Origin: Candidatus Laterigemmans baculatus
GTDB lineage: Bacteria > Planctomycetota > Planctomycetia > Pirellulales > Pirellulaceae
DNA length: 64,000 bases
Reading direction: 5' to 3'
Assembly: GCF_010367455.1 (NCBI RefSeq)
Contig: NZ_WRPR01000037.1
Coordinates: forward strand, 1 to 64,000
The notes beneath the pieces are model-generated. The model searched no databases. It saw nothing but the letters and a program-made list of their open reading frames with translations, and was not told the origin of the DNA. The position numbers were made by a program, and so were the translations under genes. Every line of letters starts with the position of its first letter. The stretch's first letter is position 1. Below are positions 646 to 60,471 of this stretch, in pieces.

Positions 646-646
646 C

Positions 647-1555: not shown

Positions 1556-1645
1556 GGCTTGGCTCCTTTTCCTGTTACGATTGAGTCGGACATCCTGGGG
1601 CGATCACTCCTCAGCGATCACCTCGCCCCTGTTGCCGACTGTTTT

Positions 1646-1661
1646 ATATTTCTAAAAATAT
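1646..1661. promoter_or_regulatory. Candidate ArsR operator palindrome
   Basis: A perfect AT-rich inverted repeat, ATATTT-CTAA-AAATAT, in the otherwise GC-rich arsM/arsR spacer. It overlaps the first possible arsR start codon at 1660. ArsR/SmtB repressors bind AT-rich inverted repeats near the start of their own gene, so this is the natural operator candidate. The assignment is inference from position and symmetry. Confidence 0.45.
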
Positions 1662-2028
1662 GGAAATGTCACGCGCTGTCAAGGCGCTTTCCGCACTGGC
1701 TCACGAATCGCGTCTGGCGATTTTTCGGTTAGTAATCGCGGCCGGTCCGCGGGGAGTTGCGGCTGGAGAAATCGCCGAGCGGTTGGAGGTGCCGCGGCCG
1801 ACGCTCTCGTTCCACCTCAGTCAGCTCACGGGAGCCGGACTGCTGGAGGATCGCAAGGAGGGGAGGTCGGTGATCTATGCCGCCCGGTTGAAGGGCATTA
1901 GCGAGCTGCTGGAATATCTAATTGAAGACTGCTGCCAAGGCGAGGTGGGCGGCTGCGCGGTCCCCGATCTTGTGGTCCTGAAAAACTGCAAGCCGCTCGG
2001 CTCGGACGCGACGGGCGAGCAGAAATAG
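1660..2028 (+). CDS. arsR: ArsR/SmtB-family metalloregulator with C-terminal cysteine site
   Basis: A 122-residue winged-helix regulator. The ArsR recognition region (RPTLSFHLSQL, residues 46-56) and the wing (EDRKEGRSVIYAA) are clear. Arsenic sensing is suggested by Cys91-Cys92-x6-Cys99, plus Cys110, at the C-terminal end. This resembles the C-terminal CC-x5-C site of Acidithiobacillus ArsR rather than the CVC site in the DNA-binding helix of plasmid R773 ArsR. The start could be ATG 1660 or ATG 1666. Neither has a good Shine-Dalgarno sequence and both lie in or beside the AT-rich palindrome. It should repress itself and the divergent arsM. Confidence 0.85.
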   Translation: MEMSRAVKALSALAHESRLAIFRLVIAAGPRGVAAGEIAERLEVPRPTLSFHLSQLTGAGLLEDRKEGRSVIYAARLKGISELLEYLIEDCCQGEVGGCAVPDLVVLKNCKPLGSDATGEQK

Positions 2029-2061
2029 GCGGAGCCCGCGAGATCGTCGCGGGCGTCTGGC

Positions 2062-3708
2062 TCAATCGGCGGAGGAACCGTCGGTCAGCACGGAGGGGGA
2101 CTCTTGCTTGAGACCTCGAGCCTCTTCAAAACGCACTCCCGGATTTTCTCGCTGGGCATACTCGGTATCCCAGAGCGACTGGAACAGTACGGCGGGACTT
2201 CCGTCTTGGTCTTTGACGACCCGTGAGGAATAGGGGAGCGTGAGGCGACGCGCGTCCTCCACGTCGCCTTCGATCCAGCGGGCCATCTTGAACGGCAGCC
2301 ACTGGATGTCGGTCTGCGTATTGTATTCGCTCTCGAGGCGGAACCGCACGACGTCGAACTGCAGCTCACCGACTGCTGCCAGGATTGGCTCGCTGCGGGC
2401 GGCGCGAGAGTCGGTAAACATCTGAATCGCCCCCTCCTCGAGCAACTGTTCGAGCCCACGGCTGAACTGTTTGCGGCGAAGCGTTTCCCGGCAGCGAAGG
2501 ATGGCGAAAAACTCGGGAGAGAACTGCGGCAGCGGCTCGAAGTTGATCGGTTCGCCGGTGCAGATCGTATCCCCCAAGCGGAATTCGCCGGGATTTACCA
2601 GACCGATGATGTCTCCCGGAAAGGCCTCGTCCATCGTCTCCCGCTCTTGACCGAACACGCGGTGAGCTCGGCGGAGCCGCAGCTTCTTTTCGGTGCGGGA
2701 GTGCATCACTTCCATCTCCCGCTCAAAGCGTCCGGCGCAGATTCGGACGAAGGCGACCCGGTCGCGGTGGCGGGGGTCGAGGTTGGCCTGGATCTTGAAC
2801 ACGAAGCCGGCAAACTCAGCCCGCGATGGCTCGATCGCTCCGCGGTCGCTCTGGCGGGCGCGGGGGGGCGGACAGAGCTCGAGGAAGCCGCGGAGGAAGT
2901 GCTCGACGCCCCAATTCGTCAGGGCGCTGCCAAAAAACACGGGTGAGATTTCGCCTGCCAAGAACCGCTCGCGGTCGAGCGTCGTGCCGGCGGTCGCCAG
3001 CAATTCGACTTCCTCGCGGGCCTGAGACAAGATGCTCGCTTGCAGCGCGTTCTCGTCCTGGTCGCTCAGCTCGGCAAGGTCGATCGTTTGCGTCTCGCCC
3101 CGCCGGTCCCGCGTCTGCTCTCCGAACAGATGCACCCGCTCGGTGGCCAAGTCGACCAAGCCGCGGAAGTCGGGACCAAAGCCGAGCGGCCAGTTCTGGG
3201 GGACCGGCTCGATCCCCAGCTTGCTCTCGATCTCGGCCAAAATCTGCAGCGGTTCCTGCCCCGGGCGGTCGACTTTGTTGACGAACGTCAGCACCGGGAT
3301 CCGCCGCATCGCGCAGACGCGGAACAGTTTCTCCGTCTGCGCTTCGACCCCTTTGGCAAGGTCGATCACCATCACCGCGCAATCGGCGGCCATCAACGTC
3401 CGATAGGTGTCTTCGCTGAAGTCATGGTGCCCGGGCGTGTCGAGCAGATTGACCCGCTTGCCTTCGAATTCGAACGTCAGCACGGTCGAGCTGACCGAGA
3501 TCCCCCGCTGCTTTTCGAGCTCCATCCAGTCCGAGGTGGCCGACCGCTGCGTCTTGCGGCCGCGGACTGCCCCGGCAACGTCGATGCAGCCGCCGAACAG
3601 CAGCATCTTTTCGGTGAGCGTCGTTTTTCCGGCGTCGGGGTGAGAGATGATAGCAAACGTCCGCCGCCGCAGCACCTCGCGTTGGACCTGGGGATCGATC
3701 GAATTCAC
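2062..3708 (-). CDS. prfC: Peptide chain release factor 3 (RF3)
   Basis: A 548-residue translational GTPase that recycles RF1/RF2 from the ribosome after termination. G1 (SHPDAGKTT), G3 (DTPGHHDFSEDTYRTL) and G4 (NKVD) are all present. The switch region EKQRGISVSS and the C-terminal sequence GAIQMFTD...VGELQFDVVRFRLESEY are characteristic of RF3 rather than EF-G. The length is close to the usual 525-550. The ATG at 3708 directly precedes the conserved N-terminus. It stands alone, with a repeat-rich space upstream. Its stop is 33 nt from the convergent arsR stop. Confidence 0.95.
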   Translation of the reverse strand: MNSIDPQVQREVLRRRTFAIISHPDAGKTTLTEKMLLFGGCIDVAGAVRGRKTQRSATSDWMELEKQRGISVSSTVLTFEFEGKRVNLLDTPGHHDFSEDTYRTLMAADCAVMVIDLAKGVEAQTEKLFRVCAMRRIPVLTFVNKVDRPGQEPLQILAEIESKLGIEPVPQNWPLGFGPDFRGLVDLATERVHLFGEQTRDRRGETQTIDLAELSDQDENALQASILSQAREEVELLATAGTTLDRERFLAGEISPVFFGSALTNWGVEHFLRGFLELCPPPRARQSDRGAIEPSRAEFAGFVFKIQANLDPRHRDRVAFVRICAGRFEREMEVMHSRTEKKLRLRRAHRVFGQERETMDEAFPGDIIGLVNPGEFRLGDTICTGEPINFEPLPQFSPEFFAILRCRETLRRKQFSRGLEQLLEEGAIQMFTDSRAARSEPILAAVGELQFDVVRFRLESEYNTQTDIQWLPFKMARWIEGDVEDARRLTLPYSSRVVKDQDGSPAVLFQSLWDTEYAQRENPGVRFEEARGLKQESPSVLTDGSSAD

Positions 3709-46036: not shown

Positions 46037-49000
46037 TTAGGATTTTCGCCGCGAAGGATGGGGCACATCGGGGCGGAGGAGCTTGGGCGAAGCCGGTGAG
46101 GCCTTAGCCGTCGGCTCCGTCTTTCTCTTCGGACTCTCGCCGTTCTCGCTTTCCCTCAGTTCCCGCTCCGGAAGCGGCAAGGCCGTCTCAGTTGCGTCTG
46201 CGGCCTCAGTCGCCGGGGTGGGGGACTTCGCCGTGGGGGCCAAGTGGGGGCGCGGGCGGAAAACGCGGCCCAGCGGGCTGGCTAGCAGCGCAGGGAGGAA
46301 GATCAAGTCGCCCACCAAGGCGGCGGTCAGCAGGACCAGCATCAGCGTTCCGAACCGCTGCGTCGGCGTGAACGTGCTGAGGGCGAAGACATACAGCCCG
46401 AGTCCCCCCACAAACGTCGTCTGCGTCATCGCCGGACCGACGCGGCGGTAGGTGGCGATGATTGCTTCGTGACGGCTGAGTCCGCTGTCGAGTCCTCGCC
46501 GCAGCCAGGAGAGGAAGTGGATCGTATCGTCGACGGCAATTCCCATCGCCACGCTGGCCGTCATCATCGTGCCGATATCGACGAGCCATTCGGCGTGTCC
46601 CATCGAACCGAAAATCATCACCACCGGGAACAGGTTCGGCAGCATCGCGAGCATCCCGGCGGCGATTCCGAAGAACAGCGCCTTGGGATGCAGGATGCCC
46701 AGCGGCGGTCGGCCGGGGTTGAGCAGGATCGTCATCACCGCAGCGATCAACACGAATGCCCAGATCGTGCTTTCAACAAGGCTTGTGAGCAGCGTTCGCT
46801 GGGCTTTGTAGACGACCGGAATCACGCCGGTGTAAACGACCTCCAGCGGGCCGCTGTCATCGACGAGCGGAATCCCTTCGACGACCTGCGGCACACCGCG
46901 ATCGCTGGGGATGTTGCGGGCGTCGACAAACTGCCGGGCATGCTCGCGAATGAAATCGACGTCGTAGTTCGGGCTGTCGTCGACGAGCACCACCGCGGAG
47001 GCAGCGGCGAGCAGCTTGCCCCATGCTTCCGTCCGCTGCTTGCCCGCGAAGGCTTGGCTGTTGGGCTCGTGCCACAGTGTCCGCCGCAGCGGTTCGTTGT
47101 CGAGCAATTCACTCAGCGTCGAAGCAAAGATCGTTTGAGTGTCGATGACCTCCGCAGCGGTCACATCCGCCTCTGACTCTCCGGCTGGGGGAGGGAGCAA
47201 CAGCGGAGCCGCACCGACTGGCCGCGGTTTGCCACGGCCGAGGACAATCACGTCGCCAAAGCGAATCGAGGGATCTTCGGCTTTGGCCGCGTCGACCGCG
47301 TCAAGGACTTCGCCCCGGTAACGATAGGCTTCGAGGACGGGACCGACGGCCACCCGCAGCTCGTTGATGAAGCGGCCGTAGTCGACGTCGCTCAGGGCGC
47401 CCACGCGGAGGCTGATCCGCCACAGCTCGCTCCCGGCGAGAGGCCCGTCCTCCTCGATCCGCAAGTAATCCGAATCGATCAGCGCGTCGACCGAATCGCC
47501 CAGGCGGCGGTTGAACTCCGATCGCTCGAGCGACATCGACGACGATGGAGGAGGTAGCGGCGGCGCGAGCGACGCAGCGCTCATCGCTTGCCCGACAATC
47601 TCCTGCCCCGCGTCGCCAAAGACGCGCGCGATCGTCCGCTGTATGTGGTCGACCGCTTCGAGCCGCTCGAGTCGGCGAAGCGGGTGCACCGAAGCCTCGT
47701 CGGTATCCGCACCGGCTCCAGCATTGGCAGCGGCTACAGCACCGGCGGGCTCCTCAGCCCCGTTGGCCTCCGCGGCCTCGACCCTTTCCTGCTGCATCTC
47801 TGGAGGAACTCGCAGCACGAGCTCCATTGGGACGAGTTTGGCGTAGTTGGTTTCGAGCCAGGTGTAATCGCGAATGATCCGCGAGTCCTCGTCGAACATC
47901 TTCAGCAGGTGGACCGACGTGCGGATCTTCGGCACCCCGAACGCCGCGGCGATGAACATCAGCAAACATCCGGCAGCGACCCAGCGGTGATGGGCCACCA
48001 CCCAGCGTCCAAAGATTTCCCAGTAGTCAGCCAATTTGCCGACGCCCGGCTGCGCGCTGTCCGCCGCCGCCTTGCCCGGTCGTTTTTTCTTGCGGGGAGC
48101 ATCTTTGGCTGGGCTAAAGGTCTCCAAGGCTGCCGGCAAATAAGCGAACAGCAGAACCAGCGTGGCGATGACACCGACGGCCGAGAACCAGCCGAACTTG
48201 CGAATCGGCACGATGTTGCTCGTGTACAACGACAGCAGACCGATTGCCGTCGTGATGCTCGCCAGCGTGCACGGGCCCCAGCCATGCCGGAGAGCCCGCT
48301 CGGGAGCCCCCACGACTCCCTCGCTTTCTACTTCCTCGCGGTAGTAGTTGACGATGTGGATCGCCGACGAAAGCCCGAGCACGTACACCAGTGCCGGCAT
48401 GCTCATCAGGATCGCGTCGACGCTCGCCCCGCTCCACCACACGATGCTCAGGCTGATCACCGCCGCGGTGCCGCCGACGAAGAAGATCATGAACGTGATC
48501 TTCAGGCTGCGGAAACTGATGTAGCTCAGCAGCAACCCCAGGGCGGCGCAGTAGCCGACCAGGCGCACGAGCGTGATCGTTCCTTCCTCGTCGATCGACA
48601 CGTTGTCGATCGGCGGTCCGCCGAGGTGCATCTCCGGACCCGGCGGAGGTAGCTCGGCAACGAAGTAATTGAACGGCGGCGGAGCGGCGACTGGCGACGG
48701 AGGCGGGGAGAGCCCTGATTGTTCGGCTAACTGGTAGAGCCGGCCCCGGGGGCCGCCGAGGACGCCCCGGCCAACGACGAACGGCAGGTTCTCTTGGCCG
48801 ATCTTGGTCAGCGTCACCAGGATTCCGGTCAGCCGCGGGGGCGGAGCGACGCCGGCCGCATCGAAGACCTCGTACCACACCTCCGTCTGCTCTTCGTCGG
48901 GAGCCGCGACGAGTGCCGAGATGTAACCCTCGTACCGCTCGTCGATCACTCGCTCGAGCGTCTCGCCGACGGTCGCGTCAAAATCTTCGGGCAACTCGCC

Positions 49001-49870
49001 TCGCCGATCCTCCGGAACCGCTTCGCGGAAGGCGGCGGGCGTCCAGACAAAATCTTCCGGGACCGCCGAGGCGAACAGCGTCCCGGTCAACTGCTTGATC
49101 GCTCTGCGGCGTGCGACAACCGGCTTGAATTCCGCGTCGGTCAGGTCGACCGGATAGAACGCGCCGCCTGGCTGCGAAAGCTCGTCGGCCACGTGCGGCC
49201 CGGTCTGAACATTCGAGAACAGCGGCGCGGTCAGCCACGCGGGGTAATTGTAGTAGGGATTGATCGCGTCCGGGTCATCCTCCTGCCCCGACTCGCCCAA
49301 GGCAGTGATGAACGTGCCTTCGACTTGCGGCCCCGAGATGAGCCGACGGACGACGCGACTGATCCCGCCGATCGTGTCGCTGCGACCTTCCCAGCGAAAG
49401 AGCTGCCCTGCGGGAGTGAAGTAGTACCACTGGCCGGAGTCGCTCGTCAGCCAGATCTCGTCCAGTCCGCCCCAGTTGCGGTGCAGGTCCGACGGCAGGA
49501 GCAGGCCGAGCTCGACTGCCAGGGCTTGGGCCCGCTCGAAATCGGGGATCTCCCCGTGCTTGCCGCGGCCGCGCTCCGATTCCGCTTGCAGCTTGGTCGC
49601 CAGAATCTCGAGCCGCTGATCTTCCTCGGTGGCGCCTTCCCAAGTGGCAAGAATGAACTGCTCGCCTGCGAAGTACCGGCCAAACCAGGCCAGCTCCGAG
49701 GTTTCCCGGAAATCCGCTGGCAGCCAGTCTTTGACGTTATTCTCGGTCTTCTCCAAGCTCAGCCGGGCTCCGCGGAGCCCGAACGGGACGAGAAAGAAGA
49801 CGACCAGAAGAATCAACAGCGCGTTCGGTACGCCGAAGATGCTGCGTCGCGATAGAAAGGAAGAGGTCAT
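46037..49870 (-). CDS. MMPL/RND-family transporter, large
   Basis: A 1277-residue inner-membrane protein with duplicated RND topology. One helix (ALLILLVVFFLVPFGL) precedes a 350-residue periplasmic domain, then a five-helix block (LVGYCAALGLLLSYISF ... FAYLPAAL). A second helix after a KKKRPGK loop, a second periplasmic domain with Pro/Ala linkers, and a final five-helix block (GMLAMLPNLFPVVMIFG, AVDDTIHFLSWLRRGL) follow. The MMPL signature of proton-relay acidic residues in GIAVDDTIHF is present. It probably exports lipids or hydrophobic compounds. The start is ATG 49870; an upstream ATG at 49906 is possible. No MFP partner gene is adjacent. Confidence 0.85.
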   Translation of the reverse strand: MTSSFLSRRSIFGVPNALLILLVVFFLVPFGLRGARLSLEKTENNVKDWLPADFRETSELAWFGRYFAGEQFILATWEGATEEDQRLEILATKLQAESERGRGKHGEIPDFERAQALAVELGLLLPSDLHRNWGGLDEIWLTSDSGQWYYFTPAGQLFRWEGRSDTIGGISRVVRRLISGPQVEGTFITALGESGQEDDPDAINPYYNYPAWLTAPLFSNVQTGPHVADELSQPGGAFYPVDLTDAEFKPVVARRRAIKQLTGTLFASAVPEDFVWTPAAFREAVPEDRRGELPEDFDATVGETLERVIDERYEGYISALVAAPDEEQTEVWYEVFDAAGVAPPPRLTGILVTLTKIGQENLPFVVGRGVLGGPRGRLYQLAEQSGLSPPPSPVAAPPPFNYFVAELPPPGPEMHLGGPPIDNVSIDEEGTITLVRLVGYCAALGLLLSYISFRSLKITFMIFFVGGTAAVISLSIVWWSGASVDAILMSMPALVYVLGLSSAIHIVNYYREEVESEGVVGAPERALRHGWGPCTLASITTAIGLLSLYTSNIVPIRKFGWFSAVGVIATLVLLFAYLPAALETFSPAKDAPRKKKRPGKAAADSAQPGVGKLADYWEIFGRWVVAHHRWVAAGCLLMFIAAAFGVPKIRTSVHLLKMFDEDSRIIRDYTWLETNYAKLVPMELVLRVPPEMQQERVEAAEANGAEEPAGAVAAANAGAGADTDEASVHPLRRLERLEAVDHIQRTIARVFGDAGQEIVGQAMSAASLAPPLPPPSSSMSLERSEFNRRLGDSVDALIDSDYLRIEEDGPLAGSELWRISLRVGALSDVDYGRFINELRVAVGPVLEAYRYRGEVLDAVDAAKAEDPSIRFGDVIVLGRGKPRPVGAAPLLLPPPAGESEADVTAAEVIDTQTIFASTLSELLDNEPLRRTLWHEPNSQAFAGKQRTEAWGKLLAAASAVVLVDDSPNYDVDFIREHARQFVDARNIPSDRGVPQVVEGIPLVDDSGPLEVVYTGVIPVVYKAQRTLLTSLVESTIWAFVLIAAVMTILLNPGRPPLGILHPKALFFGIAAGMLAMLPNLFPVVMIFGSMGHAEWLVDIGTMMTASVAMGIAVDDTIHFLSWLRRGLDSGLSRHEAIIATYRRVGPAMTQTTFVGGLGLYVFALSTFTPTQRFGTLMLVLLTAALVGDLIFLPALLASPLGRVFRPRPHLAPTAKSPTPATEAADATETALPLPERELRESENGESPKRKTEPTAKASPASPKLLRPDVPHPSRRKS

Positions 49871-50241
49871 CGTGTGCAGGGATCCGAGCCGTGACGGTCC
49901 GACCATAAGGTCTCCACGGCCAGCGACCAGCAGGTGTCTGAGCAACCCCGCCGGCAGGAAGACCGAGAATGGCTGAACAACTACGTGTTGACCAGCCTAG
50001 CGACGGGGCCCGTTGCGGTCCACGGTAAGCGCGGCCGCTGCGGGACTTCCCCCCGAAAAGAGCGCCTGTGGTATGGTCTCCAGGAGCTCCGGGGTTTGGA
50101 GCAGCGGCACGCATTATGCGTTTTAAGGGGAAGCTGCAAAGGAGCAGGCCTCGCTGACTTGCCCTTACATCTTGCCTGCGCTGCCCATTGTTGTGTCGAA
50201 ACCCGTTCCGTGTCGAAAACCGCTAGCCAGGAACTTCCACC
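49871..50241. other. 371-nt divergent promoter region
   Basis: Lies between the RND-type transporter and transaldolase genes. It contains no repeat of the families seen elsewhere and no credible ORF. An AGGAA about 9 nt before the transaldolase GTG serves that gene. No clear -35/-10 pair could be assigned. Confidence 0.5.
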
Positions 50242-51318
50242 GTGACCGAATCTACCTCCGCCCCCGCTTCGCTACGCTCGCTGGTTCAAACTGGAACCAA
50301 ACTTTTTTTGGATTCGGTGGCTCCAGAAGAGTTGGAAAAAAATCTCCGCTGGGGGGCCGTCGGTGCCACGTCCAACCCCTCGATCATCTCCGAGATCGTC
50401 GCGGACGGCAGTCTCGATGATCGCATCGAATCGCTTCTCGAAGAGGGACGCGACGATGAAGAAATCGCCTGGGAATTGACCGACCAGCTCGTCTCCGACG
50501 CCGAACAACGGTTCCTGCCGATCTGGGAGAAGAGCGAAGGAAACACCGGTTGGGTCAGCTTCGAGCTCGATCCGCTGCTCGAAGATCCCGAGGAATCGAT
50601 TTCGGAGGCGGACCGCACCGCCCGCTATATCGAGCTCGGCAAACGTTGGAGCCATGGGCACCGCAACCGGATGATCAAAGTCCCCGCGACCGACGCCGGA
50701 ATCGCGGCGCTCGAAGAGTTGGCGGCGGCCGGGGTGACGCTAAACGTGACGTTGATGTTCACCGCAGATCAGTACCAGCGGGCCCGAGACGCGATTTGGC
50801 GGGGAGCCCAGCGCCGCGACTCGCTGGACAACTTTAAAAGCGTTTACAGCATCTTTATTTCGCGCATCGACGTGTACACCGACGAGCACGTCCCGCAGCT
50901 CTCCGCCGAAGCTCAGGGGCAAGTCGGGATCGTCAACGCCAAGCAGATCTGGGCGCAGAACCAGGAGTTCTGGAGCTCCCGCCCCACCCGGCTGGAGCAA
51001 GAGATCATCTTTGCTAGCACCGGAACGAAGAAACCCGAGGACGAGCCTTGGAAGTACGTCCAGGCGCTCGCTGGCAGCGGGATCCAGACCAACCCGCCGC
51101 AGACCAATGAGGCGGTTGCGAAGGCAGAGATGACTTTTGATCGACAGGTCGACCGCCTGCCACCCAAGAGCGTCCTGGATGAAATCGCCTCCAAAGTCGA
51201 CGTCCCCCAGATGCATAAAGTGCTGATGGAAGAGGGAGCCGCCAAGTTCGTCAAGCCGCAGCGGGCGCTGCTGAAGCTGATCGCGGAGAAACGCAAAGCA
51301 CTCTCCGCAGCCAAGTAA
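50242..51318 (+). CDS. tal: Transaldolase
   Basis: A 358-residue transaldolase of the long type. It transfers a dihydroxyacetone unit between sugar phosphates in the pentose phosphate pathway. The N-terminal [20 protein letters not shown], the Schiff-base lysine in RMIKVPAT, the [12 protein letters not shown] strand and the [11 protein letters not shown] segment are diagnostic. The second half ([11 protein letters not shown]...[12 protein letters not shown]) fits the actinobacterial/planctomycete form. The start is GTG. A CT-rich C-terminus ends [16 protein letters not shown]. Monocistronic. Confidence 0.93.
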
Positions 51319-51344: not shown

Positions 51345-51532
51345 CACCCTCCCGCTTGCGGGAGGGTCGGGCTCTCAGGCCCGGGGAGGGCCGGCAAGCC
51401 TGAACGATAAGCTTCCAGTGAAACTCACTGTTGCGGTGACCCTCCCCGCTCGTTCCTCGCGACCCTCCCGGGGGGAGGGTGAGGATTTCACCGCGTTTTC
51501 GAGAACCGGGGGCTAGCGCCCGGCGGCTGATG
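51345..51532. repeat. Family E hairpins and a family B half
   Basis: CACCCTCCCGCTTGCGGGAGGGT (in parts, 51345-51367) and GACCCTCCCGGGGGGAGGGTGAG (51461-51483, in parts) enclose a unique middle. GAACCGGGGGCTAGCGCCCGGCGGCTGATG follows (51501-51531). The first hairpin lies 27 nt after the transaldolase stop and could help end that transcript. Confidence 0.75.
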
Positions 51533-51640
51533 AACCATCCGGACTAGCTTCCCCAAAAACTCGGGTTGTCGGCAGGGGCTCTGAAAGGCTAGTAACCTGC
51601 CGAGTTGGCGAACGTGCGCGGCGAAGGAAAGGAGTCCTCA

Positions 51641-53026
51641 ATGCCGAAGCCGCGGTTGATATTCTTCTGGTGCCTGTTGCTCGCTTCACCGGCGGCCGCC
51701 CAATTTGGCGGCGGTGCGGGAGGTGCAGGTGCCGGTGCGCCCGCGGCGGTCGAAAAACCCCGCTTCCGCGATCACGTGATGGAGCAGGGAGGATTGTCGG
51801 TTCGCCGTGAGGTGGGGGATAAAGTCGTCCGCGGCGTCCGCATCGTGGGCAATCGCCAGATCGGCACCGAACGGATTCAACAGCTGCTCCGCACGCGTGT
51901 CGACCGCGTCTTCGACCAGCAGGCGGTGTTGGCCGACGTCCGCCGGCTGTATGAGTTCCGAGCGTTTCGCTCGGTGCAAGACTCCGTCGTCGACGACGGC
52001 CAAGGGGGCGTCACCGTCACCTTTACCGTCGAGGAGTACCCGCTGATCTCGCAGGTCATCTTCCATGGCAATCGAGCGATGGGGGACCGCGAGCTCCGCG
52101 GTCGCGCTGGATTGGCCAAGGACGATCCGGTCAACGACGCGGCCATCGAATCGACCCGCCGCCGCTTGCTCGACTACTACCACGGCGAGGGATTCAGTTT
52201 GGCGACGATCGAGAGCGTCGTCGGTTTGCCGGACGATCCCAACGCAGTCGTGTACCGAATTAACGAAGGTCCGAAAGAGCGGATCGCTGCAATCCATATC
52301 ATTGGCAACTCGATCGTCAGCGAAGCGCGGCTGAAAAAGGTCATCGCCTCCCGCGGTCCAATGTTCGGACTCGGTTATTACATCGGCAATGCGGCCGACA
52401 TGGAAAAAATCGACGGCGATGTCGAAGTCCTGACCGCTTACTACCGCAACCTCGGCTACCTCACGGCCAAGGTCGATCGACTGATCGAGTATGACAAAAG
52501 CGGCAAATGGCTGACCGTCACTTTTGTGATCGAAGAAGGACCCCAATTCACGGTCAATGAGATCCGCATCGCCGGCAATCGGTTCATCGATGAATCTTCC
52601 TTGCGAGCCGGACTGCTGCTCACCGCGGGCGAACCATTCAACGGCACGCGGATGAACACCGACGTCAATGACATTACCTACTCCTACGGCTCTCTCGGCT
52701 TTATCTATGCCGAAGTCGAAGCCGAGATCCGCTGGATTGACAGTGAGAACAGCGTTGACGTGGTCTATAAGATCGAGGAAGGAGACCGCTGGAAAGTCGG
52801 GCACATCTACGTTGAGATCGACGGCGAGCCCAACTTGATGCGCGAGTACACCATGCTGAACTACTTGGATTTGGTCGAAGGTCAATTCATCGACCGACGC
52901 ATGTTGGAGATGAATCGCCGTCGGCTGCTCCGATCCGAGTTATTAGAAACCAATCCCGCGGTCGCCGATCCCCCGGATTTGCGCGTGGTGCCCCAGGACG
53001 AAGAAGATTTCGGGGGTGCCTTGTGA
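51641..53026 (+). CDS. POTRA-domain protein: periplasmic half of a split BamA-like Omp85
   Basis: A 461-residue protein starting at ATG 51641, after AAAGGAG. It has a signal peptide (LIFFWCLLLASPAAAQ), a short Gly/Ala linker, and then consecutive POTRA repeats. Repeat starts are VVRGVRIVGNRQI, ISQVIFHGNRAM, IAAIHIIGNSIV, FTVNEIRIAGNRFI and KVGHIYVEIDGEPN. The first four are full-length and the fifth is cut before its last strand. Five POTRA domains is the BamA number. No beta-barrel follows in this polypeptide. The stop overlaps the next gene, which encodes the barrel, by GTGA, so the two are translationally coupled. It should sit in the periplasm and bind the barrel partner. Confidence 0.85.
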   Translation: MPKPRLIFFWCLLLASPAAAQFGGGAGGAGAGAPAAVEKPRFRDHVMEQGGLSVRREVGDKVVRGVRIVGNRQIGTERIQQLLRTRVDRVFDQQAVLADVRRLYEFRAFRSVQDSVVDDGQGGVTVTFTVEEYPLISQVIFHGNRAMGDRELRGRAGLAKDDPVNDAAIESTRRRLLDYYHGEGFSLATIESVVGLPDDPNAVVYRINEGPKERIAAIHIIGNSIVSEARLKKVIASRGPMFGLGYYIGNAADMEKIDGDVEVLTAYYRNLGYLTAKVDRLIEYDKSGKWLTVTFVIEEGPQFTVNEIRIAGNRFIDESSLRAGLLLTAGEPFNGTRMNTDVNDITYSYGSLGFIYAEVEAEIRWIDSENSVDVVYKIEEGDRWKVGHIYVEIDGEPNLMREYTMLNYLDLVEGQFIDRRMLEMNRRRLLRSELLETNPAVADPPDLRVVPQDEEDFGGAL

Positions 53027-54867
53027 AAATCCGTCGACAGGAAAACAGCAGCCCGATGATCGCCCGCCTTCGGCAATCCCGCTCGCTCGTCCCGCATCTC
53101 GCAGCTCCCGCAGCCCGAGGTGCTTGGAATGTGATTGCGATCGCAGCGATGGTTGGACTGACCGCGGGCGGTTGCCAGTGGCTGCGGCCGACCCCGATTC
53201 ATCCCCTGCCCCCCTCCCCGGCTGAGACGCTTTCTTCGGCCGGCCCCTCCGCTTCAGCCGACGCCTCTTCGATCGATTCGCAAGGCAGCGGCGAGGCGCA
53301 GGTGAGCGAGTACGTGGGCGATCTGGACGCTCCGACTTCGCTGCGTCGCCCGCCGCTGGCGAGTCCGCCCGCCGACACCAATCAGCCGGCTCCGCCGCGG
53401 ACGATCGTCCGCGGTCAGGGGGGCGGCTTTGCCATTCCTCCCACCTTCGAGCAGGCAGCCGACGGTGGCCGTCACAGTCGCGGACCGCTGCCGGTCGGCG
53501 GCCAACCAACAAGCGTCGCGGCAGCTCCTCCCTCGCAGGGGACCAGTTCCAACGGAACCACAGCCAATCGCCCGCCAGCAGTTGCTCCGGCGCAGTACAC
53601 TTCGCCCCCCGGCTACGGTGCCCAACCCGGGTACGCACCTTTGCCGCAGCCCAGCCCTGCGCCACCAGCGGGAGTCGCTCCCTACGTGGGCCAGCCGGTC
53701 CCCGGCGCGCTGCCGGAGATCACCGGCGAGGACATGCTGCCCGGAACGGGGCTCGGCCAGCCGCTCCCCTATACTCCGCTGACGCGGACGGCCGACATCA
53801 TCGTCAACGGGTATCCGGCTCGCACTGGGCGGATCATGTTCGGTGGTGCGGTCAACAGCGATGCGGGTGTGACGGGGCAGGTCACGATCGAAGAGCGAAA
53901 CTTTGACATCACTCGCTTTCCTCGCTCCTTCCAAGATTTGGTCGGGGGTACGGCCTTCCGCGGAGCGGGGCAAACCTTCCGTGTCGAAGCGGTGCCGGGA
54001 AGTGATTTCAAACGGTACAGCGTCAACTTCACCGAACCTTATATCTTCGGTTACATGCCGATCAGCATGTCGGTCTCTGGATTTCTCTTCGACCGCCGTT
54101 ATCAGGACTGGGACGAAGAGCGGCTCGGGGGCCGTCTGAGTTTCGGTTATCGAATCACACCCGACCTGTCGATTTCCGCGGCCATCCGCGGTGAAAACGT
54201 CGAGGTGACCGATCCCCGCATCGCCGGTGTGCCGCAGTTGGACGAAGTGCTCGGCGACAATGAGATCTACTCGGGACAAGTGCAATTGACGCACGATACT
54301 CGCAACAGCCCATTCGCACCGAGCGAGGGGCATTATCTCACGATGAGTTATGAGCAAGCTTTTGGGGATTTTGACTATCCTCGCGGCGAGATTGCCCTTA
54401 GCAAGTATTTCCTCGTCCGCGAGCGGGCCGACGGTTCCGGAAAGCAAACTTTGACGACCGGTTGGAGCCTCGGCTTTAGCGGTGAAGACACGCCGATTTT
54501 TGAAAACTATTTCGCTGGCGGCTACTCGACCATGCGTGGCTTCGAGTTCCGCGGGGCCAGCCCGACGGTCGGTGGCGTGCAGGTCGGTGGTCGATTCCAG
54601 TTTCTGGGGACGGTCGAGTACATGTTCCCGCTGACCGCCGACGACATGCTTCGGGGCGTGGCCTTCGTCGACTACGGCACCGTCGAGCAGGACATCGAGA
54701 TCAACAGTGAGAACTTCCGCGTCGCCCCCGGGGTTGGGTTGCGAGTGGCAGTTCCCGCCCTCGGCCCCGCTCCGTTGGCGTTCGACTTTGCTTTCCCGGT
54801 TGCGGAAGCCGATACCGACGACAAGCAAACCTTCAGCTTCTACATGGGCCTGAACCGCCGCTTCTAA
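53023..54867 (+). CDS. Omp85-type beta-barrel, probable lipoprotein: barrel half of a split BamA
   Basis: A 614-residue protein starting at GTG 53023. It opens with a basic leader and a hydrophobic segment (NVIAIAAMVGLTAGGC) ending in a lipobox-like AGGC. About 200 residues of Pro/Gln/Ser-rich linker follow. Then TRTADIIVNGYPARTGR, which looks like the last strand of POTRA5, leads into an Omp85 barrel: GQVTIEERNFDI, FRVEAVPGSDFKRYSVNFTEPY, TLTTGWSLGFS. The loop-6 signature is MRGFEFRG. The final residue is Phe, as expected for the closing strand. It is probably anchored and inserted in the outer membrane and assembled with the upstream POTRA protein. Confidence 0.85.
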   Translation: MKIRRQENSSPMIARLRQSRSLVPHLAAPAARGAWNVIAIAAMVGLTAGGCQWLRPTPIHPLPPSPAETLSSAGPSASADASSIDSQGSGEAQVSEYVGDLDAPTSLRRPPLASPPADTNQPAPPRTIVRGQGGGFAIPPTFEQAADGGRHSRGPLPVGGQPTSVAAAPPSQGTSSNGTTANRPPAVAPAQYTSPPGYGAQPGYAPLPQPSPAPPAGVAPYVGQPVPGALPEITGEDMLPGTGLGQPLPYTPLTRTADIIVNGYPARTGRIMFGGAVNSDAGVTGQVTIEERNFDITRFPRSFQDLVGGTAFRGAGQTFRVEAVPGSDFKRYSVNFTEPYIFGYMPISMSVSGFLFDRRYQDWDEERLGGRLSFGYRITPDLSISAAIRGENVEVTDPRIAGVPQLDEVLGDNEIYSGQVQLTHDTRNSPFAPSEGHYLTMSYEQAFGDFDYPRGEIALSKYFLVRERADGSGKQTLTTGWSLGFSGEDTPIFENYFAGGYSTMRGFEFRGASPTVGGVQVGGRFQFLGTVEYMFPLTADDMLRGVAFVDYGTVEQDIEINSENFRVAPGVGLRVAVPALGPAPLAFDFAFPVAEADTDDKQTFSFYMGLNRRF

Positions 54868-54898: not shown

Positions 54899-55148
54899 CA
54901 TCAGCCGCCACACGCTAGCCCGGATTATTCATCAGCCGCCGGGCGCTAGCCCCCGGTTCCCGAAGACGCCGTGACAACCGGACGCTAGCGCGAGGCGGCT
55001 GATTTAACACACTGTTTTCTGACGTTCTGCCGCAACTTCCGAACGCATACGGACTTACTGCCTTTTTATCTGCACGCGTGAATTATCCGGGCTAGCGTCT
55101 GGTCGTTGGGAGTTGTCAGAACCCGGCGGCCGGCACCCCGCGGCTGAT
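54899..55148. repeat. Cluster of family B repeats
   Basis: A half element (54899-54925), a full copy (54930-55003) and a degenerate copy (55087-55147, GGGCTAGCGTCTGG...CGCGGCTGAT) fill the space between the BamA barrel stop and the glycosyltransferase stop. The GT stop codon TAA directly abuts the last repeat. Nothing else is seen in this 280-nt gap. Confidence 0.8.
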
Positions 55149-56266
55149 TAAGTGGCGTCGATGCGGCCTTTCCAGGCAACCCGTTTGCCGAAGCACTGCT
55201 GGACGAGCGCTTGCCACTGGAGAGCGACGAACAGGAGCACAGCGATCGGATGCAACGCGGCTCCGAGTTTCGATTGGGAAAATCGTACCGCGCACCGCCA
55301 GCGCGGAAGGTAGGCCAGCAGGCAAGCCGCCCCCGTGAGAAGAATTGCTGTGGCGCTTCCGCTGACAACCGCTACTGGCAGCCATACAAACGGGAGCACG
55401 CTCCCACCGATCAGCAGGAGCGTGAAGGGAACGATCCGGGCGGGATGTGCGATGCCCTCGGTGGCATTTTTGAGCAAGCCGCGGATGACTTCGCTGGCGC
55501 TGTGGTACATCCGGCAGGAGGCGACATGGGTGCCATCGCAGACATCGGTCGAGAGCCCGGCGCGGCGGTACGCCTTGGGCAGCATCAGGCCATCATGCCG
55601 CGTCCGGCGAATCGCCGCGTGGCTCCCCGCGCGGTCGTACGCCCGTTGCGACGTCAGGAACAGCTGGCCGCAGCCGGCTGCGTAGGCGGGATGGGTACTG
55701 CGCCGCATCCGCTCGATCGGCAGAAATCCCAGCAGGATGTAATGCATCATCGGGATCAGCAATCGTTCGAGCCACGTCTGCGTCTCTTGATGTGGGAACG
55801 GGCTCAGCAAATCCACGCCCGTTCGCCGCATCTCCGCGACCAGCCGGGCGAGCCCGTCGGAAGCCAGTCGTACGTCGGCGTCGAGGAATACGAGCAGCGG
55901 ATACTGGGCGGTCGCTGCGAGTTGCCAGCACGCGTGTTGCTTCCCGTTCCAACCCTCGGGTAAGGGTTTTCCTTGGACCAAGCGGACTCGCGTGTCGCGG
56001 CCCCGCACCGCTTGGACGACGTCGGCCGTCGCGTCGCTCGAGTGGTCATCGAGCACGACCACTTCCACCTCCACTCCTTCGGAACGCAGCGCCGCGTTCA
56101 TGCACTGGCTGATCGTTGCCGCTTCATCGCGAGCCGGAATGAGGACCGAAATCCGCGGTTTGGGCTGATCGCCCGAAGGCTGGGCGGGCGGAAGAAATAG
56201 TGCAAGATTGCGCAGCACCATCAGCGCCGGCAGCGCCGCCAAGAGAAAAGCAATGACCGCGATCAA
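55148..56266 (-). CDS. Family 2 glycosyltransferase (CrtQ/HpnB-like)
   Basis: A 372-residue membrane-associated GT2. An N-terminal helix precedes the GT-A domain: SVLIPARDEAATI, VVLDDHSSDATADV, the GWNGKQHACW motif shared by CrtQ- and HpnB-type enzymes, FLDADVRL with the DxD metal site, and HDGLMLPKAYRRAG. Three C-terminal helices follow. CrtQ glycosylates a C30 carotenoid acid in staphyloxanthin synthesis. The neighbouring carotenoid-type oxidoreductases support a similar role. The start is TTG 56266, coupled to the upstream acyltransferase by a TTGA overlap. Confidence 0.8.
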   Translation of the reverse strand: MIAVIAFLLAALPALMVLRNLALFLPPAQPSGDQPKPRISVLIPARDEAATISQCMNAALRSEGVEVEVVVLDDHSSDATADVVQAVRGRDTRVRLVQGKPLPEGWNGKQHACWQLAATAQYPLLVFLDADVRLASDGLARLVAEMRRTGVDLLSPFPHQETQTWLERLLIPMMHYILLGFLPIERMRRSTHPAYAAGCGQLFLTSQRAYDRAGSHAAIRRTRHDGLMLPKAYRRAGLSTDVCDGTHVASCRMYHSASEVIRGLLKNATEGIAHPARIVPFTLLLIGGSVLPFVWLPVAVVSGSATAILLTGAACLLAYLPRWRCAVRFSQSKLGAALHPIAVLLFVALQWQALVQQCFGKRVAWKGRIDAT

Positions 56267-57021
56267 TTGAATTTCTCTCCATGTTCGGCGCGGAACCGCG
56301 CCCCCCGCAAGGCTTGTCGCGAACGACGGAAAATATCATACAGCCCGGTCCCCTTCTTGCCACTGAGCAACGGTTCAAACGGCTGTGGATCTCGAGCGAT
56401 CGAAGCGGCCGCTAGCTGGCCTTGAGTCTCACGGAGGGCGGCGAACAATTTGCCTTGCCAGCCGGCTTTGTCGAGATTTCCAAACTGGCCGCAGTGAATC
56501 GGTTCGCCGAAGCGGATCAAGCATTCCGGTAGCCGCTCTTCCCAAAACACATACTCGACGGCCATCGGCAAGACGACCGCGTGGTTGGGGAGACGGGTGC
56601 AAAGGTGTGCAATTCCCGGCTGGAATCGTGCCGAGGTATCGCGGGCATCGGCAAAGCGTCCCTCGGGAGTCAGCCACAGCGAGCCGCCGGGGGAACGAAG
56701 GATCGCCAAACTGGTCCGCAGGAACGTGCTCGCGCCGCGGCGGTGCTTGAGATCGACGCCAAAGAATCCGAGCTTCGCAAAGACCCGATACTGCTCGAGC
56801 GCCGCGGCATCGATTGGCGCGTAGAACTGGCGACCTTCGAAGTAATGGCGGCAGACGTAATGAGCCACCAGCGGATCCCACCAGGAGGGATGGTTGCCAA
56901 ACACCAAGAGCGGAGCATCGCCGAGCGACCGCAAGACCGCAAGCGATGCGCGATCCGCGGCGATCGTATGGAAGTGACGCTGCAAGAACGGCCGGATAAA
57001 CGCATGAAAGCCGCGCTGCAA
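56263..57021 (-). CDS. PlsC-type acyltransferase
   Basis: A 252-residue protein of the lysophospholipid/glycerolipid acyltransferase family. The catalytic HX4D motif is NHPSWWDP, and the second motif (LTPEGRFAD) matches the acyl-acceptor binding EGTR-like site. No signal peptide is seen. In this position it may acylate the glucosylated carotenoid, as CrtO does in Staphylococcus, although CrtO belongs to a different family. The start is a TTG at 57021. The conserved sequence seems to continue upstream (SEWLQRGFH), and a CTG at about 57060 after AGGAAAC is an alternative. Confidence 0.75.
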   Translation of the reverse strand: MQRGFHAFIRPFLQRHFHTIAADRASLAVLRSLGDAPLLVFGNHPSWWDPLVAHYVCRHYFEGRQFYAPIDAAALEQYRVFAKLGFFGVDLKHRRGASTFLRTSLAILRSPGGSLWLTPEGRFADARDTSARFQPGIAHLCTRLPNHAVVLPMAVEYVFWEERLPECLIRFGEPIHCGQFGNLDKAGWQGKLFAALRETQGQLAAASIARDPQPFEPLLSGKKGTGLYDIFRRSRQALRGARFRAEHGEKFN

Positions 57022-57065
57022 CCACTCGCTAACCGGAGGAGGAGAAGAAGGTTTCAGGTTTCCTG

Positions 57066-57349
57066 ACTCTAACGGGTTCTATGTGAGCACCTGACCGGAG
57101 AAACAACCACGAATGACACGAATTAAACGAATGGTGGCCACGGATGGACACGAAAAGGGGGAGAACCGCAGATAGCACGGAGAACGCGGGTAAAGGGGAG
57201 TTCGGATTCCTTCGTGCTCTTCGTGTCTTTGGTGGTTTTCCAGCGTCTCGAATCCATGGGCATAGGCTCGGGCCCGTAGAAGCCCATAGATTCCGTTAGG
57301 GTCAGGGGATTTGGGGTTTGGGGTTTGGGGTTTGGGGTTTGGGGGCTGC
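57066..57349. other. Repeat-bearing intergenic region between carotenoid genes
   Basis: Contains ACCACGAATGACACGAAT... and GCCACGGATGGACACGAA, a diffuse repeat type common between genes of planctomycetes and related phyla, and GTGCTCTTCGTGTCTTTGG facing it. The (GGGGTTT) array and a short CAGTACT array end it. It separates acyltransferase/glycosyltransferase from the desaturase gene by 328 nt, so they may form two transcripts. Confidence 0.55.
57305..57345. repeat. G-rich tandem array (GGGGTTT)n
   Basis: Five GGGG runs separated by ATTT or TTT and ending GGGGG. It fits a G-quadruplex on the plus strand. It lies a few bases after the desaturase stop codon (minus strand gene), so the transcript would carry the C-rich complement. 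Confidence 0.85.
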
Positions 57350-58900
57350 TCAGTACTCAGTACTCAGTACTCTTCCGGCTTGGGCGTCGGCGTCTAGGCA
57401 ATCCGCGGCGATCCAGCCGCTCATCATCACCATCGGCATTCCAGGTCCGGGATGAGCGGCGCCGCCAGCCAAATACAACCCGCCCACATCGGTCCGGCGA
57501 TTCCCTGGCTTGAACGCTCCCAAAAATTTTCCGTGGCTGGCCAGACCGTAGATCGCTCCATTGAGGACGCGATAGCGATTGTGGATGCCCTCGGGGGTGA
57601 GTGCGGCTTCAAACCGAATCGCATCCCGCAGTCCGCTCATCCCCGCGGTTTGCTCCAGTTTGTCGAGGATGACTTCCCGATACTCCGGGAGCATCTGCGT
57701 CCAGTCGTGTCCCGGGCGGATGTAGGGCGTATGGACCAGCACGTACAGCGCTTCGCCTCCCTCGGGGGCGACCGACGCGTCGCTCGTCGCCGGAGCACAG
57801 ACGTACGCCGTCGGATCCGGGGCCGGCCGACCTTGGCGATAGATCGCGTCAAACTCTTCTTCCGGGTCGCGGGAGAAGACGAAGTTGTGGTGCAGCAGTT
57901 GGTCGTAGCGGCGATCGAGTCCCAGATACAGCACGACGCCCGAACAGGCCGGTTCGTAGGAGGTCTTTTTACGGAAGCGGGCTGCCGGGCGGCCACCGAT
58001 CAATTCCTGATAGGTGCGGACCGCGTCACAGTTGCTGATCACCGCTTCGCATTCGATCAATTCGTCGGCGGTGGTTTCGACGGCGGCCACGCGGCGACCG
58101 ACAATATCGATCCGGCGGGCGTCGACCCCGGTGCGAATCTCGACGCCTAATTCTTCAGCCAGTTTTCCGAGCGCTACCGGAATGGTGCGGGTTCCACCGA
58201 GCGGATACCAAATTCCTTCGCCCGTCTGCATGTGGGCGATTCCGCAGAGCACCGCCGGCGAGGCATCCGGGGCCGAGCCGACGTACTGGGTAAAGTGGTC
58301 GAGCATCTGAGCGACGCGGGGATCATCGGCATACGACCGCACGACGCCCGAGACCGAACGGCCCATCCGCAGGGCAAGCACGTCCTTAAGCGTGGCGGGC
58401 GAAAAAGTACTGCCCGCGTTGAACATGTCCGAGAGCCCACCGACCGATCGCCAAAAGAAAAACCGATCGCTGATTTCGTGCAGCTGCTTCGAGAGCGTGA
58501 GGAACTGTTCGTAGCCCTCTCCGGCCGCCGAGCCCCCCGTGTAACGCTCGAGATTCTGCTGCATCGCCGCGGTGTCGGAGGTCAGATCGAGCACCGTCTG
58601 ATCGTCGTAAAAGCAACGCCACTGGGGATCGAGCGGAAGCAGACGAAGGTAGTCGTCCATCTCTCGCCCCGCTTCGCTGAAGATCCGTTTCAGCACATTG
58701 GGGAGCGTCAGGATTGTCGGCCCCATGTCGAAGCGGTAGCCGTCCCCTTCCAGCGTCGCCGCCTTGCCGCCAATCCAATCGTTCTTGTCGAGCAGCGTCA
58801 CCTGATGCCCGCGGGCGGCAGCGACGCAGGCGGCCGACAATCCGGCTAAACCACCGCCAATGACCACGGTCTTCAAAGAATGCTTTTCCGAGGCGATCAC
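57350..58900 (-). CDS. CrtN/CrtP-type carotenoid oxidoreductase (CrtP-like)
   Basis: A 516-residue flavoprotein of the phytoene desaturase family. The N-terminal FAD-binding motif is VVIGGGLAGLSAACVAAARGH, then GGKAATLEGDGYRFDMGPTI, a GTRTIP motif, and the C-terminal GLYLAGGAAHPGPGMPMVMMSGWIAAD. In C30 pathways CrtN desaturates diapophytoene and CrtP oxidises the terminal methyl. The end motif PMVMMSG differs from the desaturase VxxES, so CrtP is preferred, weakly. The start is GTG 58900, overlapping the aldehyde dehydrogenase stop (GTGA). The last codons and TGA come from an AGTACTGAGTACTGA repeat. Confidence 0.78.
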   Translation of the reverse strand: MIASEKHSLKTVVIGGGLAGLSAACVAAARGHQVTLLDKNDWIGGKAATLEGDGYRFDMGPTILTLPNVLKRIFSEAGREMDDYLRLLPLDPQWRCFYDDQTVLDLTSDTAAMQQNLERYTGGSAAGEGYEQFLTLSKQLHEISDRFFFWRSVGGLSDMFNAGSTFSPATLKDVLALRMGRSVSGVVRSYADDPRVAQMLDHFTQYVGSAPDASPAVLCGIAHMQTGEGIWYPLGGTRTIPVALGKLAEELGVEIRTGVDARRIDIVGRRVAAVETTADELIECEAVISNCDAVRTYQELIGGRPAARFRKKTSYEPACSGVVLYLGLDRRYDQLLHHNFVFSRDPEEEFDAIYRQGRPAPDPTAYVCAPATSDASVAPEGGEALYVLVHTPYIRPGHDWTQMLPEYREVILDKLEQTAGMSGLRDAIRFEAALTPEGIHNRYRVLNGAIYGLASHGKFLGAFKPGNRRTDVGGLYLAGGAAHPGPGMPMVMMSGWIAADCLDADAQAGRVLSTEY

Positions 58901-60471
58901 GAGCGTGGATTCTCCGGTCGGGGGGCGGGGGCGGTGCGGGGCGAAGGCTCGCCCCGAGATGGTTTGGCGCTGCGAGAGGTTCTGTCGCTTTGGGAGATTC
59001 CCGCCCCCCGGGTCGATCGAGCTGACTGGGCCAATCTGACTCCCTCGGTCAAGCGACGCAACCCGGACCACTTTGCTCCCCAGCGGCGGCTGTACTGCAT
59101 CTGAAAGGCCCCAAGAAGAAATTGGAAGTTGGCCGGGGTCGAACGCTGCAGATGCAGGAGCGGTCCGCGGCGGCGGACGCTGAGCACTCGCGGCACGGTC
59201 ATCTCCAGCAACCCTTCGGCCCCCCGCGTCACCCCAAATCCACTCTCGCGGCGACCACCGAAGGGGAGCCTCGGATCGGCCGTCGGTGCGATCAGATCGT
59301 TCAGCGTCACGCAGCCGACTTCCAATTGCCGAGCCACCCGCAGGGCTGCCTCGTGCGGCCCAAAAACCGAGGCGGCCAAGCCATAGCGGCAGCGATTGAC
59401 AACGTCGATCGCTTGGGCCGCATCACCGACGGCTTGCATCGCGGCGACGGGCCCAAAAACGTCCGAATGCATCAAACGCATTGCTTCGGTCGCCTCGCCA
59501 ATCACCAGCGGACGCATTTTTCCGGTGGCCGTAAAACGATCGCGGTCCCAGTGGTTCAGCAAGTCGACTCCGCCGAGCTGCAGCGCATCCTCGACCGCTG
59601 CCAGAACTCCCTCCCGCGCCGCCGGATGCACTTCGAACTCTTCACCGGTTTCGGCAGGGCGGAACTCGCCGTGGAGGTGTTCGACGAGCGGTGCCAGCAT
59701 CGACTTTTCCGCCAGCACTCGGCGAGGTCCGATACAGGTCGCTCCTCCTCGCAGCCCCAGTCCGAAGCGGAGGGCCGCGGCGACTCGCTGGAGGTCGGCG
59801 CCCTCGAGCACGAGCATCGCATCGCAGCCGCTCAGCTCGAGCGTACTCGGCGTGAGCTGTTCGGCGGTCTGGGCGAGCACCCGTCGCCCGGTCGCCGCGG
59901 ATCCGGTCAGCACCACGAAATCGACTCCCGCGGCGATCGCGTCGCTCGCCTCGCTGGCTTCGCTGCCGAGCACCCGCAAGCACTCCGGCGGCACTCCAGC
60001 GGCCCAGAAACACGCGGCCAATCGCTCGCTCGACGCTTCACATCTCGGGGCCGGTTTCCAGAGCACCGCATTGCCAGCGGCCAGGGCCTGAGCGACTTGC
60101 ACGCCGGCCAGCAGCAGCGGGTAGTTCCAAGCTCCGATCACGAGCACGACACCCCGCGGAACGCGTTCGACGTAGCCGGTGACGCCGAACAACCACGACG
60201 GTCGTCCCCGGCCGCCCACCCGCCGCGTCGCCAGGACCCGCGGCCCTCGGCGGCCAATGAACCGCAAGGCGTCGCACAGCGGGATCAGCTCGGCGGCGAG
60301 CGTCTCGGTCGGGTCCGAGTGCTGGGGCGAAGCGACCATCGCGATCAACTCCTCCACCGCGGCGACGATCCGTTCGGCGGCCGCCGACACGATGCGGCAC
60401 CGCTCGGAAGTGCTCCGCGAAGCCCAGGTTCGCTGGGCGGCCGAGTCGAGCTGCGGATTCACAGGAGCCAT
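58897..60471 (-). CDS. Aldehyde dehydrogenase of the carotenoid cluster
   Basis: A 524-residue NAD(P)-dependent aldehyde dehydrogenase. Motifs: VTGYVERVPRGVVLVIGAWNYP, the Rossmann FVVLTGSAATGRRV, the general base Glu in LELSG, and the catalytic cysteine in RGGATCIGPRR, in place of the usual NxGQxC. PFGGRRESGFG near the C-terminus is conserved. A basic Pro/Ser/Arg tail ends the protein. In C30 carotenoid synthesis an aldehyde dehydrogenase converts diaponeurosporenal to the acid, and the flanking genes support that. The start is ATG 60471 with AGGTGA 6 nt upstream. Longer starts add Cys-rich residues. Confidence 0.82.
   Translation of the reverse strand: MAPVNPQLDSAAQRTWASRSTSERCRIVSAAAERIVAAVEELIAMVASPQHSDPTETLAAELIPLCDALRFIGRRGPRVLATRRVGGRGRPSWLFGVTGYVERVPRGVVLVIGAWNYPLLLAGVQVAQALAAGNAVLWKPAPRCEASSERLAACFWAAGVPPECLRVLGSEASEASDAIAAGVDFVVLTGSAATGRRVLAQTAEQLTPSTLELSGCDAMLVLEGADLQRVAAALRFGLGLRGGATCIGPRRVLAEKSMLAPLVEHLHGEFRPAETGEEFEVHPAAREGVLAAVEDALQLGGVDLLNHWDRDRFTATGKMRPLVIGEATEAMRLMHSDVFGPVAAMQAVGDAAQAIDVVNRCRYGLAASVFGPHEAALRVARQLEVGCVTLNDLIAPTADPRLPFGGRRESGFGVTRGAEGLLEMTVPRVLSVRRRGPLLHLQRSTPANFQFLLGAFQMQYSRRWGAKWSGLRRLTEGVRLAQSARSTRGAGISQSDRTSRSAKPSRGEPSPRTAPAPRPENPRS

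Follow-up and report, generated by a model that had tools for sequence, protein, structure and literature searches.

BamA, which is described as the conserved core of the machinery that assembles the outer membrane, is known as a single polypeptide with its fifth POTRA domain (POTRA5) joined to the barrel; the planctomycete Candidatus Laterigemmans baculatus appears to encode it as two. Here, we describe a locus at positions 51641 to 54867 of a 64,000-nucleotide stretch of its genome (RefSeq assembly GCF_010367455.1, contig NZ_WRPR01000037.1, positions 1 to 64,000 of the forward strand; referred to below as the window), in which two adjacent genes, one for a POTRA protein and one for an Omp85 barrel, correspond to consecutive halves of BamA. 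At the level of sequence, the halves are consecutive, they have separate genes and signals, the split is conserved among relatives, and fused kin carry a long insertion at the very site of the cut. We put at roughly three in four the probability that the locus is a natural two-subunit BamA, the halves of which are exported separately, dock and work as BamA.

The BamA model TIGR03303 matches the first gene (51641-53026) over model positions 1-371 and the second (53023-54867) over 387-738, and as these matches are consecutive we read the genes as consecutive parts of one BamA. Their scores are 219 and 151 bits against a cut-off of 297, each half spanning only its own part of the model; because both fall below the whole-length cut-off, annotation of the family to which the window belongs may miss or mislabel the halves. 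Several POTRA domains followed by an Omp85 barrel, with the RGF/Y signature of loop L6 as MRGF, are all present, spread over two genes, but the single polypeptide with a covalent POTRA5-barrel link is not, the two parts having separate open reading frames both here and in every one of the 32 further family genomes. For this reason the locus is filed as a two-chain variant rather than an ordinary BamA. The barrel chain further carries, by a sequence rule of our own given below, the predicted mark of a bacterial lipoprotein, namely a signal ending in a lipobox with a Cys. The features of the locus are as follows.

51641-53026, forward strand: POTRA chain, 461 residues, with a signal peptide, POTRA1-4 and POTRA5 minus its last strand; starts at ATG 51641 and ends in TGA (TIGR03303 1-371).
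51641-51700, forward strand: probable type I signal peptide MPKPRLIFFWCLLLASPAAA, read from the sequence alone.
51827-52783, forward strand: POTRA1-POTRA4 (PF07244 matches at 51827-52036, 52043-52270, 52280-52540 and 52550-52783).
52784-52993, forward strand: POTRA5 strands 1-2 and both helices, strand 3 missing from the chain (the TIGR03303 match stops at 371).
53023-54867, forward strand: barrel chain, 614 residues if started at GTG 53023, ending in TAA; other starts are ATG 53056 and GTG 53131.
53131-53175, forward strand: hydrophobic segment and lipobox VIAIAAMVGLTAGGC, called by the rule-based scan; a helix at residues 31-49 in the AlphaFold2 model, and present in most relatives too.
53173-53175, forward strand: predicted lipid-acceptor Cys codon at the end of LTAGGC, from the same rule-based scan.
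53176-53790, forward strand: Pro/Gln/Gly/Ser-rich linker of ~205 residues, with AlphaFold2 confidence (predicted local distance difference test, pLDDT) mostly 26-55 in 10-residue blocks; it corresponds to the insertion that fused relatives have in POTRA5.
53407-53418, forward strand: VRGQ, an instance of the [hydrophobic]R[GA]Q motif in the second gene, from a motif scan.
53791-53811, forward strand: ADIIVNG, putative strand 3 of POTRA5, here part of the barrel chain and located where POTRA5 meets the barrel in TIGR03303 and in fused relatives.
53812-54864, forward strand: Omp85 barrel with a terminal Phe (PF01103, 2e-49).
54532-54543, forward strand: MRGF, the loop L6 signature, read from the sequence; a profile aligns it with SVRGF of the solved BamA 9pxj.

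This composition agrees with the first-pass annotation, made from the sequence, which had described a first gene with a signal peptide and five POTRA-like repeats, the fifth cut short, and a second with an AGGC lipobox-like site, a Pro/Gln linker of ~200 residues, a strand resembling the end of POTRA5, an Omp85 barrel, MRGF and a terminal Phe. The GTGA overlap that it had placed between the genes holds if GTG 53023 starts the second one; since the in-frame ATG 53056 (33 bases on and an equally good start) and GTG 53131 also leave the barrel chain its signal peptide, the overlap is possible rather than certain. This locus holds the sole PF01103 barrel and the sole gene with PF07244 POTRA domains in the window genome (5.76 Mb, 96% complete), where no second Omp85 barrel or PF07244 gene was found, a copy in the missing 4% being conceivable. 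BamD gave seven weak matches in that genome, all below the cut-off.

A gene was called split when one stop-to-stop frame held its POTRA part and another its barrel part; a frame length in the search table may span an in-frame stop, as in G019, so that the table alone can hide a split. TIGR03303 matched 39 of 40 genomes, the window genome included, in one search. Within the window's family (f1), each of the 32 other genomes has the split, as read for 27 by sequence and for five by table frame lengths (G021, G121, G125, G129 and G148). Other families of the same order, represented by 18 genomes examined by sequence, gave 3 split genes (G026, G027, G032) and 15 fused ones, the families other than f1 that have a split being f3, f4 and f9. 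Beyond the order only fused genes were seen, in 11 genomes from elsewhere in the class (L160-L170) and at 30 loci from the remaining phylum (L105-L134). The 73 loci from named genomes comprise 43 split and 26 fused ones and 4 whose short length does not allow a call, the split records being those of Rhodopirellula, Neorhodopirellula, Aporhodopirellula, Blastopirellula and Mariniblastus and the fused ones those of Fuerstiella and bins labelled SH-PL62; records labelled only Planctomycetaceae are in part split and in part fused. G028, of the same order and listed as 99% complete, gave no TIGR03303 or PF01103 match, its BamA being either missing or very divergent, and TIGR03303 matched neither G075 nor G159, the latter having a weak PF01103 match. 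A separate type of gene was also observed: L198 (G004:C53:23000-27500, 276-2639, minus strand) encodes a 787-residue protein with a signal-like start that TIGR03303 matches in its POTRA regions only, and comparable weak POTRA-region matches, in frames of ~800-877 residues, occur in G013, G020 and G024; the PF07244 search showed no second POTRA gene of this kind in the window genome.

The proposal of the first-pass annotation that this lineage encodes BamA as two chains is thus borne out by the consecutive model matches, the lone barrel and POTRA genes and the split throughout the family. Its view that a simple frameshift is unlikely gains from the same family-wide split and from the relative frames of the halves, all three of which occur (21 in the same frame, then 15 and 22, among 58 split rows). 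The search of planctomycetes that it had suggested found the split fixed in the window's family and fused genes only in other families; neither a fused gene within the family nor, in the 96% complete genome, a second BamA, both of which it had named as counting against the split, came to light. The suspicion of an artefact, whether a frameshift introduced by sequencing or assembly or a gene in decay, is natural for a genome in 153 contigs, yet 57 unique loci share the split, including those of isolates (Blastopirellula marina, Rhodopirellula) and of the single-contig genomes G011, G019 and G144, both halves are open and conserved, and the barrel half starts with its own signal peptide. We therefore rejected frameshift or assembly error, and the probability that we leave to an artefact is vanishingly small.

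Those relative frames also bear on whether a fused and functional BamA is still made, by stop-codon readthrough or programmed frameshifting. Such a product would be in keeping with the 21 of 58 rows in which the halves share a frame, with the 12 loci at which a single stop codon separates open frames, and with the window itself, where the barrel frame stays open on the upstream side of the stop. We nevertheless consider it very unlikely: the rows are spread over all three relative frames, the stop codon varies (TAA, TAG, TGA), candidate barrel starts range from overlap to more than 370 nucleotides past the stop, and one would expect a signal peptide within a fused chain to be cleaved. As a general rule, programmed frameshifting or readthrough was judged unlikely from the frames and stop codons.

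The cut of the split genes falls inside an insertion between strands 2 and 3 of POTRA5, the position that the window linker also occupies when set against fused relatives. Measured as the gap between the two profile matches, this loop spans 10-26 residues in the phylum loci (slightly negative in 4 of 30, where the profiles overlap) and 9-15 in class families f68-f71, and the insertion reaches 50-439 residues in the fused genes of the order, in class families f17 and f67 and in named fused loci. These states may be ordered, on sequence, as short loop, long insertion and split, the direction of change depending on the chosen outgroup. In a tree of the POTRA and barrel columns with the insertion removed (106 rows, 738 columns; IQ-TREE quick, LG+G4), 49 split rows group together in a single clade, with a Shimodaira-Hasegawa-like approximate likelihood ratio (SH-aLRT) support of 100, and three other split rows (L143; L144 with L148) sit among fused rows, so that the split needs at least three changes on this tree. 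Because an approximately unbiased (AU) test, on the quick tree and LG+G4, does not reject a single split clade (p 0.319), one origin and several origins both stand; the long-insertion state needs several changes, five on the same tree, and we hence claim no single insertion event.

Insertions, linkers and tails alike are rich in a short motif, [hydrophobic]R[GA]Q, often as VRGQSPD. The 45 fused insertions hold 71 copies against 2.25 expected from shuffles, the 57 split barrel linkers 47 against 1.71, and 47 POTRA tails 18 against 0.61; at least two copies are found in 25 of the 45 fused insertions, and some split pairs carry one copy on each chain. A degenerate DNA pattern for [hydrophobic]R[GA]QSPD, run over six genomes, gave five matches in three genomes against two for a backwards control. 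Two of these matches are BamA POTRA chains (G007, G019) and one is SAQSPD in another protein; the other two, in short frames of 131 and 36 residues, were judged to be non-genes. This strict pattern had no match in the window genome or in two fused-gene genomes.

A barrel encoded apart from its POTRA arm comes with an export signal of its own. Our lipobox rule asks for a hydrophobic stretch, a small residue before the Cys, no charge just before it and a start codon upstream, the scan picking one of two neighbouring Cys in a few loci (such as L047 and L094). By this rule, a lipoprotein-type signal is found in 49 of 57 unique split barrel chains against none of 45 uncut insertions, the three split loci from other families (L143, L144, L148) all being among the carriers; the split would thus be accompanied by separate export of the barrel half. 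A lipobox-like signal on the POTRA chain was called in 22 of 57 split loci (a few of them doubtful), 8 of 43 long-insertion fused genes and 3 of 34 short-loop genes, and it is conspicuous in the Mariniblastus group. Loci with such a POTRA chain include L038, L054, L059, L061, L064, L066 and L069. Where a split locus has this signal, both chains may be lipoproteins; the rule scan found no lipobox on the POTRA chain of the window.

We modelled a natural split pair with its genes in one frame, KatS3mg111 (L040), with AlphaFold2 as a single chain in which the stop was read as Gly. The model has a mean pLDDT of 77.7 and a predicted template modelling score (pTM) of 0.69, with POTRA1-5 and most of the barrel confident; residues 415-575, which comprise the linker, the signal and the R[GA]Q motif, are disordered (pLDDT <50), and the pre-barrel strand at 583-594, contributed by the barrel gene, has block pLDDT values of 95 and 83. 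It superposes on E. coli BamA (7nri_A) over the whole length (692 of 785 residues, Z 26.6, root-mean-square deviation (rmsd) 7.2) and, through residues 337-939, on the POTRA and barrel of Sam50 (9nk6_B; 388 residues, Z 27.1, rmsd 4.1 Å); its structural neighbours were also searched with Foldseek. When the window barrel chain is modelled alone with AlphaFold2 (mean pLDDT 67.6, pTM 0.59), the barrel is confident, with block pLDDT mostly 79-98 and lower values at both ends and at residues 501-510. The segment containing ADIIVNG (residues 253-266) stays below 50 in this model with no strand assigned, which fits a segment that may need POTRA5 in order to fold.

In the mechanism that we propose, both chains would cross the inner membrane separately, and the barrel chain would be lipidated on its Cys and carried to the outer membrane; there the N-terminal linker of this chain would be held at the inner leaflet as the barrel folds into the membrane. 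The pre-barrel strand (ADIIVNG in the window) would then extend, at its edge, the POTRA5 left incomplete in the soluble POTRA chain, docking the periplasmic arm onto the barrel, and the complex would act as BamA. We lean, with some reserve, towards a non-covalent two-subunit insertase of this kind, in which a soluble arm with an incomplete POTRA5 docks on a lipid-tethered barrel by strand complementation, an arm that could exchange, be regulated or join after insertion, and in which R[GA]Q binds a partner.

Several observations weigh against a two-subunit BamA assembled in this way. That the two chains meet is something we infer from sequence and models, and the pair model is of the relative L040, run as one chain through the stop, where covalent linkage may help, and was judged by pLDDT and superposition. 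Setting the lone chain against the pair means comparing different proteins, built from different alignments, and in the lone chain the first barrel strand loses confidence as well (blocks of 63 and 74). In a scan with a loose regular expression, which is suggestive only, 9 of 16 testable POTRA tails have another segment like strand 3 after the motif (expected 1.65), and 11 of 42 fused insertions contain one (expected 5.1); as the tails of L044, L050, L051, L056, L173 and L186 carry such spare segments (WLDLDIYV and KIDLNVYA, for example), POTRA5 may be completed within its own chain in those lineages. A POTRA chain that is self-complete, and each chain having its own signal, would suit a real split in which the chains work apart, the POTRA chain as a soluble periplasmic chaperone and the barrel inserting without a docked arm. 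We think this rather unlikely, given that the POTRA chain of the window lineage ends in a 10-residue tail after the strand-2 profile end and has no spare segment, that inspection by eye of 51 split rows showed a strand-3 segment ahead of the barrel every time, and that the L040 pair model places the pre-barrel strand with high confidence.

The lipid on the barrel also meets exceptions. Eight of the 57 split barrels have no lipobox, namely five of the Rhodopirellula group (L032-L035, L037), L055 and the pair L176 and L177, and their N-termini resemble type I signals by eye; because of these, the lipid would be common but dispensable. In favour of lipidation, homologues of Lgt and LspA are present, although their matches fall below the curated cut-offs. 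The lipid anchor suggested by the first-pass annotation thus stands as a prediction for most split loci and falls for the eight, the Rhodopirellula group among them. One could go further and suppose that the window's barrel chain is unlipidated, its signal cut by signal peptidase I or retained as a membrane anchor, since lipid is evidently not required in the eight and the lipobox calls come from our own rule and not from a lipoprotein predictor. The clean separation of split barrels from control insertions, extending to L143, L144 and L148, makes this unlikely, and we keep lipidation of the barrel chain as a prediction in our two-subunit reading.

Set beside the BamA of E. coli and Neisseria (TIGR03303), the locus is alike in its five POTRA domains and Omp85 barrel, their order, the RGF of L6 and, for the L040 pair, superposition along the whole length, and it differs in its two chains, the cut inside POTRA5, the barrel's own and usually lipoprotein-type signal and the linker (~205 residues in the window). 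Fused planctomycete BamA (Fuerstiella and others) shares the insertion site, the R[GA]Q motifs and the junction to the barrel, but is uninterrupted and has no lipobox in the insertion (0 of 45). Mitochondrial Sam50 also sets POTRA, a single one, on an Omp85 barrel; it is a single chain and is not known to have a separate POTRA-arm protein. TamL of Bacteroidota is described as an Omp85 protein with a lipid-modified N-terminus (PMC12045153, PMC4104836), and the Omp85 lipoproteins of Heinz et al. (PMC4104836) are single chains with three POTRA domains and a lipid that precedes POTRA1. Here, the arrangement is the opposite, with the predicted lipobox on the barrel half, after the POTRA domains, and with four POTRA domains and a truncated fifth, so that the locus falls outside that group.

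We found no report of a two-chain BamA in the open-access library searched, most subscription papers and all preprints lying outside it, and none is described in the accessible sections of PMC8567305, PMC8871954, PMC11366764 and PMC10945584. Speth et al. give one BamA accession per planctomycete genome, and use neither of the words split and POTRA (PMC3422733); a 2026 review uses "split" only in the phylogenetic sense and does not name planctomycetes (PMC13067283).

The surroundings of the locus are unremarkable. Five neighbours scanned with Pfam (46037-51318 and 55148-59071) are an MMPL-family transporter, a transaldolase, a glycosyltransferase, an acyltransferase and an FAD/amine-oxidase-type protein, with no known partner of the β-barrel assembly machinery among them. 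A 73-nucleotide inverted repeat (85%), with arms at 51476-51548 and 54914-54986, flanks the two-gene unit and is intergenic here; with one arm as the query, 64 genome matches were listed (40 scored of 334 first-look candidates), and for this reason we regard it as a dispersed repeat and no special flank.

In an ordinary BamA the covalent link is not the only connection between POTRA5 and the barrel: a study of Neisseria BamA reports that POTRA5 makes extensive contact with the periplasmic turns and that POTRA domains must match when swapped (PMC4950039). Among planctomycetes, bamA is essential in Planctopirus limnophila (PMC10632474). With the link cut, and the cut retained throughout a family, the need for a POTRA5-barrel link becomes directly testable, and the stepwise record of short loop, insertion, cut and new signal would make this a clear case of a central machine divided into subunits.

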